A stretch of DNA of 32,909 nucleotides from Pseudonocardia sp. (lineage in GTDB: Bacteria; Actinomycetota; Actinomycetes; Mycobacteriales; Pseudonocardiaceae). The position numbers and the translations under genes were made by a program. Positions 8,141 to 32,909 of the stretch are shown here, piece after piece (the stretch's first letter is position 1; every line of letters begins with the position of its first letter). The notes beneath the pieces were generated by a model. That model saw only the letters and a program-made list of their open reading frames with translations. It did not search any database and had not been told where the DNA came from. The stretch is from positions 1-32,909 of the forward strand of contig JAJAZD010000246.1 in the NCBI GenBank assembly GCA_026785945.1, in the 5' to 3' direction.

Positions 8141-9623
8141 TCGGCGTGGCCTCGAAGGCGTCGGCCACGGCCGCCGCCAGTTCAAGCAGTGCGAGGCGGG
8201 TCCCCGGCTCCAGGCGGTCCAGATCCACCTCGGCGCCCTCCTCCAGGTGAGCGTCGAACGGGATACGGATCACCGATCGGCACCGGGCGGCGAAGTGCTC
8301 GGCCACCCGGTCCAGGTCCACGCCCCCGGCCGAGCGGTGCACACAGTTGATCACTACCACGGAGCTGGCCACCAGGTCGCCGTGCCCGTGGGCGTCGAGC
8401 CAGTCCATCGTGGCCGACGCACTGCGCGCCCCGTCGATCGAGCCGGACGACACGATGATCAGCTGATCGGCCACACCGAGGACGCCGTACATGGCCGAAT
8501 GCATCAGGCCGGTGCCGCAGTCGGTGAGGACGATGTTGTAGAAGTGCTCGAGCAGGGTCACCGTGCGCCGGTAGTCGTCCTCGCTGAACGCCACCGACAC
8601 CGCGGGGTCCTGCTCACTGGCCAGCACCTCCAGCCGTGAGGGTCCCTGCGAGGTGTAGGCCCGCACGTCGGTGTAGCGGCGTACTCGCTGCGCGTCGCGC
8701 AGGAGGTGACGCACGGTGGCGCTGGTCTCCAGGGGGATCTTCTGGCTCAGCGTGCCCCGGTCGGGGTTGGCGTCCACGGCCACCACCCGGTCGCCTCGCA
8801 GCGACGCGAACGTCGCGCCCAGGGTCGCCGTCATCGTGGTCTTCCCGACACCGCCCTTGAGGCTCAGCATCGCGATCTTGTGGCACCCGAGGAGCGGCTG
8901 GTTGACCCGCGTGGTCAGCTCCCGGCGGTGGATGTCGGCAGGGCTCTCACCGGGATTGACCAGCCGCCCGGACAGCACGTAGAGCAGGCGCCGCCAGCCG
9001 GACTGGGGCGGGCGCCTCGTCGGAACCAGCAGGCGAGCCGACGACAGGTCGGCGGTGGACTGGTCCGTACCGCTGCGGGCCTGCTGGGCCTGCTGGGCCG
9101 CGAACGCACCGGGATCCGTCCACCGCGCCGGGTTGCGCAGGCCCGGGTCGGACACGGACCGATGGGCAGCCGGCCGGGCGGTGGTCCGGCGGTCAGCGGT
9201 CCGGCGGTCAGCGGTCTGGCGGTCAGCGGCCTGACCCGCCCACCGGGGAGACGTCTGGTCGGCAGGGCCGGCCGCTCGACCGTCGGGGGACCCGGCCGCG
9301 GGACCGCCGCGACCGGGATCTCCACGGTCGGGAGCCGGGTGTTCGGGAGCAAGAGCGGTCGGGACGGATTGCAGCGGGGGCACCTGCACCGACCCTGATG
9401 GCGGGGTCAGCTCGGTATCGAAGGGCGGGGTCGACGGCGAGTGCGTGGGTTCGGCCATCGGGCTGGGCTCCAGGTCGGGCTCGGGGCGAAGTGTGGGCGG
9501 CCCGATCGGCCGGACGTAGGGCCGGGCCTTTCGCGCGGGGGCCGCGCCCCAACGCTCGCGCACGTAACGCCCCACCGAGCCGTCCGGGTAGTCCCGGTCA
9601 TCGTCGGATTCACGCTCCGTCAT
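8133..9623 (-). CDS. MinD/ParA-family ATPase, EspI-like, with long disordered N-terminus
   Basis: The 496-residue protein has about 200 residues of Pro/Arg/Ala/Ser-rich disordered sequence, then a MinD/ParA ATPase. The deviant Walker A is SLKGGVGKTT (P-loop about 256-263), followed by VVAVDANPDRGTLSQKI and a Walker-B-like LTDCGTGLMHSAM. The architecture and sequence resemble EspI-type and other MinD-like proteins linked to ESX (type VII) secretion in mycobacteria, but no ESX gene is visible here. A membrane-associated partitioning or secretion-regulating role is possible; substrate unknown. The N-terminal part contains a DRRTA pentapeptide repeat. It is transcribed alone, converging with the small membrane gene. 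The ATG is preceded only by a weak GGA. Confidence 0.85.
   Translation of the reverse strand: MTERESDDDRDYPDGSVGRYVRERWGAAPARKARPYVRPIGPPTLRPEPDLEPSPMAEPTHSPSTPPFDTELTPPSGSVQVPPLQSVPTALAPEHPAPDRGDPGRGGPAAGSPDGRAAGPADQTSPRWAGQAADRQTADRRTADRRTTARPAAHRSVSDPGLRNPARWTDPGAFAAQQAQQARSGTDQSTADLSSARLLVPTRRPPQSGWRRLLYVLSGRLVNPGESPADIHRRELTTRVNQPLLGCHKIAMLSLKGGVGKTTMTATLGATFASLRGDRVVAVDANPDRGTLSQKIPLETSATVRHLLRDAQRVRRYTDVRAYTSQGPSRLEVLASEQDPAVSVAFSEDDYRRTVTLLEHFYNIVLTDCGTGLMHSAMYGVLGVADQLIIVSSGSIDGARSASATMDWLDAHGHGDLVASSVVVINCVHRSAGGVDLDRVAEHFAARCRSVIRIPFDAHLEEGAEVDLDRLEPGTRLALLELAAAVADAFEATPTA
9186..9230 (-). repeat. 15-bp in-frame tandem repeat, three copies
   Basis: Three head-to-tail copies of ccggcggtcagcggt, the third with two changes, encode DRRTA-like pentapeptides in the disordered N-terminus of the MinD-like protein. 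The unit keeps the reading frame. Confidence 0.85.
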
Positions 9624-27864: not shown

Positions 27865-28334
27865 GGCTCTCCTGGGGTCTTCTCGACGGACGACGGCCTC
27901 GTGCCGAGTCTGGCATGGACCGCGCGGCGACTCGGACGCGACGCTCAGCGAACCGGAGCCGGGCGACGGCACCGGCGACGGCCGGGCGACGGAGGGTCGA
28001 GTACGTTCACCGCCTGGAGTCGTCCGCTCACCGGTAGATGACGAAAGCGGTCGGCGACTCAGCGGTCACGGAACGAACCCGGTCGTATGCTCCGCGCTAC
28101 CTGCCTCACCACCACAATGCACCGCGTCGCGAGACTCACCCGAGAGAGTGGCATGCAGCCTGTTGTCAGTGCACCGCGGGTGATCCCGCGGGGTACTTCT
28201 CGACACGGCAGCCCACCCGCGTGCGACGGCCGGTCACGTCCGGGCAGCAAGGCAAGTCGGGAGACATGACCCTCCCGACGCGACCGGCCCGACTAGTCCA
28301 CACCGACACCGCCCACCCGGGCGGGGAGGTCACG
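27865..28334. other. Divergent regulatory region before the BldN-type sigma gene
   Basis: About 470 bases separate the ligase start (minus) from the sigma-factor start (plus). The region has weaker codon bias than the surrounding genes. It contains a GC hairpin CCGCGGG-TGAT-CCCGCGG at 28174-28191 and a TATGCT at 28086-28091 that could be a -10 box, though no good -35 precedes it. An in-frame ATG at 28266 would extend the sigma factor by 23 residues, and a 60-codon frame (28087-28269) overlaps that ATG as ATGA. Regulation of bldN by BldD is known in Streptomyces, but I found no clear BldD palindrome. Confidence 0.5.
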
Positions 28335-29084
28335 ATGCCCCCGACGACCGCTCCCCCGGTCGGGTCACCCCCGGGCTACGCCCGCCCGGCCCCCACCGGT
28401 CCGCCGCTTCCACGGCAGCGCCCGCGCGGTGCCGCCGGCGGCGATCCCGCGCCGGTACCCGACCCCGAGGAACGCCGCACCGCCGGCCCGGACCAGGCCG
28501 TGACCACCCGACCCGTGGACCCCGACGACCATCCCGACGTGACCGGAGCCTGGGCGCTGGTCAAGGCCGCGCAGGCCGGCGACATGGGCGCGTTCGGCGA
28601 GCTCTTCGACCGCTACTACGACGTCGTGTTCCGCTACGTCCTGTTCCGCATGGGCGACCGGTCACCGGCCGAGGACATCACCCAGGAGACGTTCGTCCGG
28701 GCGCTCCGCCGGATCACCTCGGTGAGCTACCAGGGCCGCGACATCGGCGCGTGGTTCGTCACCATCGCCCGGAACCTCATCTTCGACCACGTGAAGTCCA
28801 GCCGGTACCGGCTGGAGCAGACCACCGGCGAGATGGTCGAGCCGTCGCCCAGCACGAACGGGCCCGAGCAACAGGTCATCGACCGCGCCGCCAACGACGA
28901 ACTGCTCCTTGCCGTCAAGAAGCTGAACCCCGACCAGCAGGAATGCATCCAGCTCCGGTTCCTGCAGGGCATGTCGGTGGCCGAGACCGCGCGGATCATG
29001 AATCGCAACGACGGTGCCGTCAAGGCCCTGCAACACCGCGCGGTTCGCCGCCTGGCACAGTTGATGCCGGAGGGGTTCCGGTGA
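28335..29084 (+). CDS. bldN: BldN-type ECF RNA polymerase sigma factor
   Basis: The 249-residue protein has a disordered Pro-rich N-terminus (about 1-68), sigma region 2 (about 70-160: GAFGELFDRYYDVVFRYVLF, AEDITQETFVRALRRI, GAWFVTIARNLIFDHVKSS) and region 4 (about 190-245: LNPDQQECIQLRFLQGMSVAETA). The closest family I know is Streptomyces sigma-BldN, which drives aerial-development genes and is made with an N-terminal pro-sequence. I chose ATG 28335 because GGGGAGG lies just upstream at good spacing; the ATG at 28266 gives a ~90-residue extension closer to the Streptomyces pro-sequence and cannot be ruled out. The next gene encodes an RsbN-like membrane anti-sigma factor. Whether this organism sporulates cannot be told. 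Confidence 0.9.
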   Translation: MPPTTAPPVGSPPGYARPAPTGPPLPRQRPRGAAGGDPAPVPDPEERRTAGPDQAVTTRPVDPDDHPDVTGAWALVKAAQAGDMGAFGELFDRYYDVVFRYVLFRMGDRSPAEDITQETFVRALRRITSVSYQGRDIGAWFVTIARNLIFDHVKSSRYRLEQTTGEMVEPSPSTNGPEQQVIDRAANDELLLAVKKLNPDQQECIQLRFLQGMSVAETARIMNRNDGAVKALQHRAVRRLAQLMPEGFR

Positions 29085-29241: not shown

Positions 29242-30750
29242 ATGCCCGCCGACAAGGGCAACGACGACGCGGAGCGCTTCGCTGCCGCGCTGGAGCTGGG
29301 GCGACCCCTCGTTTACGCCGACGCCGAGCTTCTGCGTGACCTCGACATCGCGGCGGCGCTGCGGGCCAGGGGTGACGCCTTCTCGCCGCATCCCGACGCC
29401 AAGGCACGCGCCCGGCAACGCGTGATGGCGGCGCTGGCCGCCGGCGCACGGCCGCGTACCCCCGCCCCGTCGGCCCCCGATCGCACGGCCCCCGATCACA
29501 CGGCCCCCGATCGCACGGCCCCCGATCGCACGGCTTCGGCGGCCCGTGTCCTCATGCCGCCGCTCCCGCCGACCGCGGCCACCCGCGTGGACCACTCCCC
29601 GGTCCGCGAGACCCGCGCCGAGACCGACGTGGACACCGTCACCACGCGGCTGCCGACGGTGCTCGGGACGACCGCCGCCGCGATGGAGGCCGACACCACG
29701 GCGCCGTCCATGACCGTCGCCCGCCGCCGGGGTCGCCACACCGTGCCCAGCCGTCCCCCGGGGCACGCAGGGAGTCGGTCGGTGCTGCGCCGGGGCGTGC
29801 TGGTCGGAACGGCGGCGCTGGTCGCGGTGATCGCCCTCGCCGGCAGTGGGATCTTCGCCAGCCGCGAGGCGTTGCCGGGCGACGGTCTCTACGCGCTGAA
29901 GCGGGCGTCCGAGTCGGCCGGGATCGCCACGACCTTCGACGAGGTGGCCAGGGCCCGCCGTCATCTCCAGCTCGCGACCACCCGGCTCGACGAGGTCGAG
30001 CAGCTGGTGGCCCGACGGTCGACCGTGGCAGACACCGGGGTCCTCCGATCGACGATCCTGGAGTTCGACACCTCCACCGGCGAGGGCTCCCGCATCCTGC
30101 TGACCCGCGACGACTCCGCCGCGATCGATGACATGCAGACATGGGCGGCAGGCCAGTCGGCCCGGCTGTCGGGGCTGCGGCCCTCACTCCCGGACTCCGC
30201 GGGTGCCGACGACTCGATCGAGCTCCTCGCCCGGCTCATGGGCCGCGCGGAGGCCCTCGAGGACCGGTCCAACTGCACCGAGGTCACCTCGGGTGCGGTC
30301 GACGAGCTCGGTCCTCTGCCCGCCGAGAGCAGCTGCGCCCAGCGGCGTACGGGTTCCGGCGACGACACGGGCATCCCGGCGCCGAACCGTCCCGGCGCGC
30401 CCGGCATCACCGACGACACCGCGACACCCGATCCGAGCGCCGATGCCGAGCCGGGCACCGGGCGGTCACCGGCCTCCGGTCCGCAGTCCGGGGCACCCGG
30501 CCCCCAGGAGGAGGAGGAGCCCGGTGGGCTGCTCCCCGGCTCGGGCAGCGGATCCGACCTGGGTGGGTTGCTTCCCGACCGGTCCGGAGAAGGTTCCGGC
30601 GCCGGCGCACGTGCAGGACAGCCTGCCGGTGGAGGCGCCGCTGCCGCTGCCTCCGGTCAGGCTGCCGCCGCTGCTCCCCGGCCAGACCGGGATCACTCTC
30701 GGCTGACACGAGCCGCCGGCACGAGCGGCGGGCCGATGCGGCGCCAGTAG
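29242..30750 (+). CDS. rsbN: RsbN-like membrane anti-sigma factor (DUF5667), probable 3' frameshift
   Basis: The ORF encodes a single-pass membrane protein. It has a cytosolic N-terminus (about 1-60), presumably the sigma-binding part, a disordered Thr/Ala/Pro region with APDRT repeats (about 78-98), a membrane segment (about 185-203) and an extracytoplasmic DUF5667 domain starting [19 protein letters not shown]. Streptomyces RsbN, the BldN anti-sigma factor, has this layout. The ATG has GAGGA eight bases upstream; a GTG at 29227 is an alternative. From about 30570 the codon bias collapses in this frame and becomes strong in the +1 frame, which reads [19 protein letters not shown] and ends [11 protein letters not shown] with a stop at 30704-30706. 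A one-base insertion near 30570-30600, in the strain or the assembly, is likely. The true protein then ends at 30706. Confidence 0.85.
29473..29532 (+). repeat. 15-bp in-frame tandem repeat, four copies
   Basis: Four copies of gcccccgatcgcacg, the second with one change, encode [10 protein letters not shown] pentapeptides in the disordered part of the RsbN-like protein. Confidence 0.9.
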
Positions 30751-30785: not shown

Positions 30786-31784
30786 GTGGTGGGAGAAGCA
30801 CAGACGCGCCCCGGTGACGGCCCTCCCCGGGAGCCCCTCACACCGACCGAGGGGGGCGGACTCGCCGGCGCCGCGGAGGTCCCCGCGGTGCTCGACGCCG
30901 CCTCGGCGCTGGACCCGGCGGTACGGGCGGGCCAGGCAGCGGCTGCCGCGGCCGTCGCGGCCGGTGACGGCGTCGCGCGCGACGGCACCACGGGAGGCCC
31001 CGCGGACGTGCCGCACGCCGATCTCACCGCGGCTGCGTTCTTCGACGTCGACAACACGATGATGGTCGGCGCGTCGATCTTCCACTTCGCCCGTGGGCTC
31101 GCCGCCCGCAAGTTCTTCACCACCGCCGACCTCGCGGGATTCGCCTGGCAGCAGCTCAAGTTCCGCGTCGGTGGCCGCGAGACGAGCTACTCCACCACCA
31201 CCGGCCGCGACACGGCGTTGTCGTTCGTGGCCGGGCGCGCGGTCGCGGAGATCGTCGAACTCGGTGAGGAGATCTACGACGAGCTGATGGCCGACCGGAT
31301 CTGGACCGGCACCCGCGCGCTGGCCCAGATGCACCTCGACGCCGGGCAGCGCGTGTGGCTGGTCACGGCGACGCCCGTCGAGCTGGCGTTGATCATCGCG
31401 CGGCGCCTCGGGCTGACCGGGGCGCTCGGCACGGTCGCCGAGAGCGTCGACGGCCACTACACCGGCCGGTTGGTCGGCGACATCCTGCACGGCCCCGCGA
31501 AGGCGCACGCCGTCCGCGCCCTCGCGGTGTCGGAAGGCCTGGACCTGCGCAGATGCACCGCATACTCGGACTCGGTCAACGACGTGCCCATGCTCTCGGC
31601 CGTCGGAACCGCGGTGGCCGTCAACCCCGACTCGGAGCTGCGCGACGTCGCCAAGGACCGGGGCTGGCAGATCCGCGACTTCCGCACCGGCCGCCGGGCC
31701 GCCCGCATCGGCGTGCCGTCGGTACTGGGTGCCGGCGCCGTGGCGGGCGCGGTGGCGGCGGGACTGGCCCGCCGCAAGCGCTGA
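30786..31784 (+). CDS. HAD-IB family hydrolase (phosphoserine-phosphatase-like)
   Basis: The 332-residue protein has an Ala/Gly-rich leader (about 1-80) followed by a HAD phosphohydrolase. Motif I is FFDVDNTMM with nucleophile Asp87 and acid Asp89; motif II is [10 protein letters not shown]; the lysine is in [11 protein letters not shown]; motif IV is [13 protein letters not shown]. The C-terminus is a hydrophobic Ala/Gly segment with a basic end ([12 protein letters not shown]), possibly membrane-associating. The GTG start (tandem GTG GTG) has GGAGG seven bases upstream. It follows rsbN, an order I recall from Streptomyces bldN loci. Substrate unknown. The neighbouring convergent gene encodes a phospholipid acyltransferase, and relatives of both families are sometimes linked or fused. 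Confidence 0.87.
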
Positions 31785-31887: not shown

Positions 31888-32909
31888 TCAGCCGAGGAAT
31901 GCGTTGCGACGTTGGCTCAGCAGGCGGTAGAGGGTGTGCTGGATCGTCTCCCGCACCTGGTCGGTCAGGTTGAAGACCCTCATGGGGTCGTCGGCGTCGG
32001 CGGGATCGACCGTGTCGGTGCAGAGCGGGGCACCGAACTCGATGTACCACTTGGACGGCAGCGGCACGAGGCCCAGTGGCCCGAACAGCGGGAACAGGGG
32101 CGTCACCGGGAAGTACGGCGCCCCGACGAGCCGCGCCAGCGCCTTGATCTCGCCGATCTTCGGATAGATCTCCTCGGCGCCCACGATGGAACACGGGATG
32201 ATCGGCACCCCGGTGCGCAGCGCCGCCGAGACGAACCCGCCGCGGCCGAAACGCTGCAGCTTGTAGCGGTCGGCGAACGGCTTGCCGATGCCCTTGAACC
32301 CTTCCGGCCACACCCCCACCAACTCCCCCGCGGACATGAGCCGTTCCGCGTCGGGCGTGCAGGCCAGCGTGCTGCCCTGCTTGCGCGCGAGCGCACCGAC
32401 ACCCGGAAGGCGGAACGCCACGTCGGCCGCCAGCAGCCGCAGGTGGCGGCGCGCGGGATGGTCGTCGTGCAGGGCCACGGACGTCATCAGCGCGTCGAGC
32501 GGCAGCGTGCCGGAGTGGTTGGCCACCACGAGCGCACCACCGGTGTCGGGCACGTTGTGCATGCCGATCGTCTCGACACGGAACCACTTGCGGTAGAGCG
32601 GGCGCATCGCCGGCAGCAGCACGTGGTCGGTGAGGTCGGCGTCGAAGCCGAAGTCGTCCACCGCGTAGTCGCCCTCGACGCGGCGACGCAGGAACGCCAG
32701 GGCCGACGCCAGTGCCTCCTCCCACTCCGAGGGCTCGGGCTCGACGTCGGGCGGGTCGGCATCCGACAGCGCCGACGGATCCGCCGGCGCCGACCGACCG
32801 ACCAGCGGCGACGGGTCCGCCAGCGGCGACGGGTCCGTCAGCGGCGACGGGTCCGTCAGCGGCGACGGGTCCGTCAGCGGCGACGGGTCGGGCGCGGCCC
32901 GGTCCTGAC
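31888..32909 (-). CDS. Lysophospholipid (1-acylglycerol-3-phosphate) acyltransferase-like protein, 5' partial
   Basis: The frame is open to the window edge, so the N-terminus is missing and at least 339 residues are encoded. The PlsC-like domain shows VVANHSGTLPLDALM, the catalytic H-X4-D type block, then VWPEGFKGIGKPF and GVPIIPCSIVGAEEIYP. The segment upstream includes PSEWEEALASALAFLRRRVE and a run of DPSPLT hexapeptides. A GTG at the MDDFGFDAD position could start a 257-residue form, but conserved-looking coding sequence with normal codon bias continues upstream. The likely role is acyl transfer to glycerolipids at the membrane; the substrate is unknown. It converges with the HAD-IB hydrolase. 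Confidence 0.87.
   Translation of the reverse strand, partial: QDRAAPDPSPLTDPSPLTDPSPLTDPSPLADPSPLVGRSAPADPSALSDADPPDVEPEPSEWEEALASALAFLRRRVEGDYAVDDFGFDADLTDHVLLPAMRPLYRKWFRVETIGMHNVPDTGGALVVANHSGTLPLDALMTSVALHDDHPARRHLRLLAADVAFRLPGVGALARKQGSTLACTPDAERLMSAGELVGVWPEGFKGIGKPFADRYKLQRFGRGGFVSAALRTGVPIIPCSIVGAEEIYPKIGEIKALARLVGAPYFPVTPLFPLFGPLGLVPLPSKWYIEFGAPLCTDTVDPADADDPMRVFNLTDQVRETIQHTLYRLLSQRRNAFLG
32807..32889 (-). repeat. 18-bp in-frame tandem repeat, four to five copies
   Basis: Units of ggcgacgggtccgtcagc repeat at 32807-32824 (one change), 32825-32842, 32843-32860 and 32861-32878, with a partial copy to 32889. On the coding strand they give DPSPLT/DPSPLA hexapeptides at the N-terminus of the acyltransferase. 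Confidence 0.95.

Follow-up and report, generated by a model that had tools for sequence, protein, structure and literature searches.

RsbN is presented as a membrane-anchored anti-sigma factor in PMC8103513, and the pair which it forms with the sigma factor BldN has been published for Streptomyces (PMC4255298 and PMC8103513). According to PMC4255298, RsbN proteins diverge strongly between species; the binding mode of RsbN is treated in PMC7406223.

The locus dealt with here lies on a single contig (C246) of a Pseudonocardia assembly of 380 contigs and 4.46 Mb. This contig, with a length of 32,909 nucleotides, is the whole stretch of DNA that was analysed and is referred to as the window. It contains a gene which, by its position and its predicted domain, is RsbN-like. 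Towards the 3' end of this gene the coding frame switches, and what follows in the +1 frame is a C-terminal tail that is conserved among relatives.

The RsbN-like gene and its neighbourhood

The RsbN-like gene is placed directly downstream of a gene encoding a BldN-type ECF sigma factor (Table 1), and an orthologue of the latter adjoins the RsbN-like gene also in the Pseudonocardia genomes G035 and G071. The best NCBIfam match of the sigma factor gene is the BldN family model TIGR02952, with an E-value of 1.3e-56 and a score of 191.2 bits, which falls below the curated cut-off of 206.45 bits; matches to Sigma70_r2 and r4 are carried in addition. The label DUF5667 had already been given to the downstream protein in an earlier inspection of the letters without database searches (the sequence-only reading). 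It is borne out by a Pfam match above the gathering cut-off, and a second DUF5667 search returned a match at the same place of the gene. Outside residues 191-209, the best hydropathy values are 0.88 ahead of residue 170 and 0.58 beyond residue 230; a single transmembrane segment is predicted on this ground, with the N-terminal part presumably facing the cytoplasm. By analogy with the published Streptomyces pair, the protein would probably be the inhibitor of the neighbouring BldN-type sigma factor, and the Pseudonocardia gene product probably restrains a developmental switch.

The HAD-family hydrolase gene located downstream has matches of 85-88 percent identity in four of the five other Pseudonocardia searched, and neither reading of the anti-sigma factor gene extends into its start at 30786. 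Two tandem repeats are present in the window, one of 15 bases in 4.3 copies at 29471-29534, where the RsbN-like gene, in its N-terminal part, encodes APDRT repeatedly, and one of 18 bases in 7.1 copies at 32762-32889, near the contig end and inside a long minus-strand ORF (31888-32907).

Table 1. Features around the RsbN-like gene, in coordinates of the window
Feature	Position	Strand	Basis or remark
BldN-like gene for an ECF sigma factor; N-terminal extension long, start codon provisional	28038..29084	+	TIGR02952
Predicted RsbN-like anti-sigma factor gene, open frame as it stands, 507 aa	29227..30750	+	DUF5667; genus homologues
Predicted transmembrane segment, residues 191-209	29797..29853	+	hydropathy maximum 2.29
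DUF5667 (PF18915) domain match, residues 215-265	29869..30021	+	39.9 bits, gathering cut-off 27
In-frame direct repeat, GGLLP encoded twice	30523..30577	+	last main-frame stretch resembling relatives
Interval holding the frame switch (+1)	30562..30616	+	over 99 percent of the posterior, linker codon model
Conserved C-terminal tail and stop, +1 frame	30611..30706	+	tail profile, codon shuffles
Main-frame run-on, Ala/Gly-rich	30617..30750	+	third-position bias lost; not the end type of 56/59 genus genomes
HAD-family hydrolase gene, downstream	30786..31784	+	PF12710, 94 bits

A frame switch ahead of a conserved C-terminal tail

The sequence-only reading had held that the third-position G/C bias of the gene is lost near its 3' end and moves to the +1 frame, and this is what was found. 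In the main frame, 396 of 444 codons end in G or C between 29227 and 30558, compared with 16 of 31 between 30610 and 30702 (Fisher test, p = 8e-7), while in the +1 frame the figure for 30611-30703 is 29 of 31. The +1 peptide and its stop at 30706 were likewise as described there. Under a general codon model, the inclusion of a switch improves the fit by about 33 nats; the best point is 30562, and alternatives ranging from 30541 to 30571 fall short of it by no more than 2.4 nats. A codon model specific to the linker, trained on 4420 linker codons from 34 relatives, gains 47 nats from the switch and peaks at 30610. The position suggested earlier, near 30570-30600, falls within the interval computed from the linker model (Table 1). 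The direct repeat that precedes the switch is an imperfect one of 16 bases, with copies at 30523-30538 and 30562-30577 that lie 39 bases apart. Since the GGLLP which it encodes in frame resembles the linkers of relatives, several of which contain GLLPD or GGLLPD, the switch probably occurs after 30577. As to its nature, the earlier proposal of one extra base stands insofar as a net shift of +1 is supported; the loss of two bases gives the same frame and is equivalent to it.

In most relatives the tail has the consensus LLPPITLPPLLPGLPGITIG. A profile built from the tails of 15 relatives was run against 14,244 six-frame segments, which were a sample of this genome together with a control genome, and the +1 frame of the window was matched with an E-value of 2.4e-5. 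Only the gene of the control genome itself matched better; after the window, this genome's next segment came at an E-value of 6.3. When the whole genome was searched for the tail, one match was obtained (30626-30703, E-value 1.1e-5), so that the tail is single-copy at that sensitivity. Out of 2000 codon shuffles made of the region, 1984 could be scored, and none of these reached the observed tail score. The tail of the +1 frame reaches its end exactly at the stop at 30706.

The RsbN-like gene was matched in 60 of the 62 genus genomes searched, the source genome (G000) being counted, and was without a match in G003 and G019. None of the relatives compared is of the same species, and the best identities are about 50 percent. 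With one locus taken per genome, body and tail share a frame in 52 of the 59 other genus genomes; no tail was detected in four, the tail is in another frame in two (G030 and G077), and in one (G029) there was no body match. The comparison of C-termini thus sides with the frameshift reading advanced from the letters, the Pro/Leu tail being the in-frame end of those 52 genomes. In the window's gene, the PPLLPG..GI.IG tail is present in the +1 frame, and an in-frame C-terminal tail is therefore missing. A long Ala/Gly-rich end was also looked for in the relatives. Where no tail could be detected, in G010, G012, G028 and G060 (loci L029, L028, L022 and L184), the C-terminal ends are different, and none of them is Ala/Gly-rich. 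An Ala-rich stretch like that of the window occurs in the main frame of G030, as is to be expected if the same off-frame is read there; a similar end was seen in no other relative examined. Three of the four tail-less genomes show an NLxLPLLP-like stretch at the C-terminal end, and the four may form one clade.

The BldN-type sigma factor and the RsbN-like protein are both unmatched in G003, where both flanks are syntenic with the window (L165, G003:C213:13000-26000, about 8954-9567). As the stretch between these flanks contains zero masked bases, the pair would not be indispensable.

Origin of the shift

The linker of low complexity holds, at 30562-30616, a net shift of +1 by which the conserved tail falls out of frame. 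Translated as written, the gene would depart from its true frame, about 44-62 Ala/Gly-rich residues would be read up to the stop at 30750, and the tail would be lost, while the N-terminal part, the membrane segment and the DUF5667 domain would be unaffected. The intact product would be a membrane protein of the RsbN type that probably acts as anti-sigma factor towards the BldN-type sigma factor encoded next to it, its tail presumably lying outside the membrane. Because the tail keeps its conserved residues, the shift must be either very young or not real.

The quality of the assembly bears on this choice. At the strict setting of a frame-switch detector, 13 strong switches were called in 443 kb of the source assembly, whose sample of 40 stretches was non-random (contigs C1-C38, the first by number, with the window added, or 443 of 4462 kb); a closed one-contig genome gave 10 in 400 kb. 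The detector is noisy: of 20 simulated single-base insertions it found 12 at its strictest setting, and 13 and 17 at looser ones; its calls in clean DNA we take to be mostly false. Under the codon model of G071, strict counts were 77 in 200 kb for G077 and 46 in 155 kb for G030. Rescoring with their own codon models changed these counts little, to 71 and 44, so that the contrast with the source assembly stands. As these two assemblies are frameshift-rich, their tail shifts are probably sequence errors, whereas the shift in the window cannot be dismissed as the product of such an assembly. The two genomes belong to Pseudonocardia sp. CNS-139 (G077) and CNS-004 (G030); in the stretches sampled (L115-L134), they have at least ten times as many strong switches per kb as the two comparison genomes, and caution is advisable with the gene models of both.

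Outside the window, 12 strong events were called in the source genome, and the ORFs of 10 of them, all except L062:17572 and L088:5355, were checked with Pfam, in one of the two frames for L060, L070 and L093:17761; this check was confined to the source genome. In a subtilase gene (L057:3653 and 3879), an I9 inhibitor is encoded in one frame and a weak S8 match in another, and in a gene for a luciferase-like monooxygenase (L072:7101) the luciferase match stops at the switch. Both look like genuine disruptions, which would fit error and mutation alike. An HTH-TPR protein gene (L088:11326) is possibly disrupted as well, and L093:8757 looks like a false call of the detector. A search for further pieces of the L057, L072 and L088:11326 genes gave no match. 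In the window itself, a homology scan with 214 genes of relatives, by which 25,792 of the 32,909 bases were covered, revealed no frame-split gene; the scan is blind to short tails and missed the tail shift of the anti-sigma factor gene as well.

At the switch site there is no homopolymer longer than 3. The interval has a G+C content of 73 percent, no more than the genome sample, and an unusual base composition as the cause of an error is unsupported. The site is flanked by inverted repeats that are short and imperfect, and DNA folding near it is not unusual when compared with shuffles (z -1.09).

In our judgement, which is not a computed one, a local error of sequencing or assembly is slightly the likelier origin of the shift when set against a real mutation. 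That a sequence error can hit this gene follows from the two other out-of-frame genomes, both of which have frameshift-rich assemblies; the inverted repeats and the broken genes at L057 and L072 were counted on the same side, and the lack of a clear excess of switches in the sample, the lack of a homopolymer over 3 and the ordinary G+C content against it. A real and very recent indel, by which the RsbN-like protein would have received an Ala/Gly-rich end in place of the tail, with a possible effect on the release of the sigma factor, is quite possible, even if we lean against it. It would accord with the source assembly, which is not clearly frameshift-rich, with the absence of homopolymers and with the inverted repeats around the site, although the latter do not fold unusually. 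The failure to match the sigma/anti-sigma pair in G003 indicates, moreover, that such a pair can be missing. The conserved residues and the codon bias that are kept in the +1 tail demand, however, that such a change be very young.

Other readings fare considerably worse. Programmed +1 ribosomal frameshifting or slippage, yielding two C-termini from one gene, finds some support in the intact +1 tail and in the lack of stops in either frame throughout the interval; yet the tail is read without any shift in 52 of the 59 genus relatives, so that a conserved programmed frameshift is ruled out as a trait of the family, no run longer than 3 exists at the site, and structure is not above that of shuffles. 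We consider this mode of expression highly improbable. The same low standing is accorded to a real shift acting as a switch, by slippage or by reversible mutation of the repeat-containing linker, in which protein with and without the tail would tune the release of the BldN-type sigma factor and PPLLPG..GI.IG would be a signal docking or sensing element of DUF5667 anti-sigma factors. Next to no credence is given to the view that there is no frameshift, the longer Ala/Gly-rich end being the true protein. The main frame is indeed open to 30750 without overlapping the next gene, and G030 likewise has an Ala-rich main-frame stretch, but that assembly is frameshift-rich, the bias of the main frame collapses, and the tail is kept in frame by the large majority of relatives; a chance origin of the +1 frame is rejected on the profile match and the codon shuffles. 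In isolation the finding amounts to an ordinary frameshift of which annotation should beware, as the functional C-terminus is probably not that of the main frame.

The tail beyond the genus and its relation to known systems

In a family-wide search, the tail was matched in 8 of 120 genomes at E-values up to 1e-3, namely in the window itself, in two other Pseudonocardia (G002 and G069) and in five genomes of other genera, in all cases in RsbN-like genes. The five matches in other genera are all DUF5667 proteins, with the tail at the end or 1-2 residues from it. This count is a lower bound, since the search missed the intact, divergent tail of G074, which was found in the examination of the genus only at an E-value of 0.0054; most of the related tails recognised by eye in DUF5667 loci were missed as well. 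DUF5667 is present in 90 of the 120 family genomes. Among 20 loci of other family members, chosen from the best DUF5667 matches, 18 had C-termini readable by pattern, and 12 of these carry a related Pro/Leu-rich tail, as judged by eye. Loci at which PPLLPG..GI.IG or a similar Pro/Leu tail follows a drifting linker are found in L034-L054, L199-L206 and L207-L226.

In our reading, the tail is a trait that DUF5667 anti-sigma factors have long retained at their presumably extracytoplasmic end. Where a low-complexity region drifts and its end is conserved, that end suggests itself as a candidate sensing part or as the place gripped by a protease or partner, and our guess is that the tail serves as a docking or sensing element. 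A limited search of the literature on DUF5667, RsbN and BldN brought no earlier description of it to light. This tail is the most useful outcome of the comparison, and a role in sensing or gripping is testable.

Compared with known systems, the gene shares with the copies of CNS-139 and CNS-004 that the tail is in another frame than the body. It differs from them in that the sampled stretches of their assemblies contain ten or more times the strong switches per kb, and from the CNS-004 copy also in that the match of the latter is interrupted nearer the start of the gene, at query residue 235. With the DUF5667 (PF18915) proteins of the same bacterial family it has the domain in common, and it departs from them by the out-of-frame position of the tail. 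When the predicted protein is set against Streptomyces RsbN, single-sequence and profile comparison gave no match to any solved chain at E-values up to 1, the N-terminal sigma-binding domain of the solved RsbN-BldN complex included; alike are the location beside a BldN-type sigma factor gene, the predicted membrane anchor and the high divergence, the likeness being one of position and domain. In spite of the fast divergence of RsbN proteins that is described in PMC4255298, the final 20 or so residues show strong conservation in Pseudonocardia and can be recognised in several other genera of the family.
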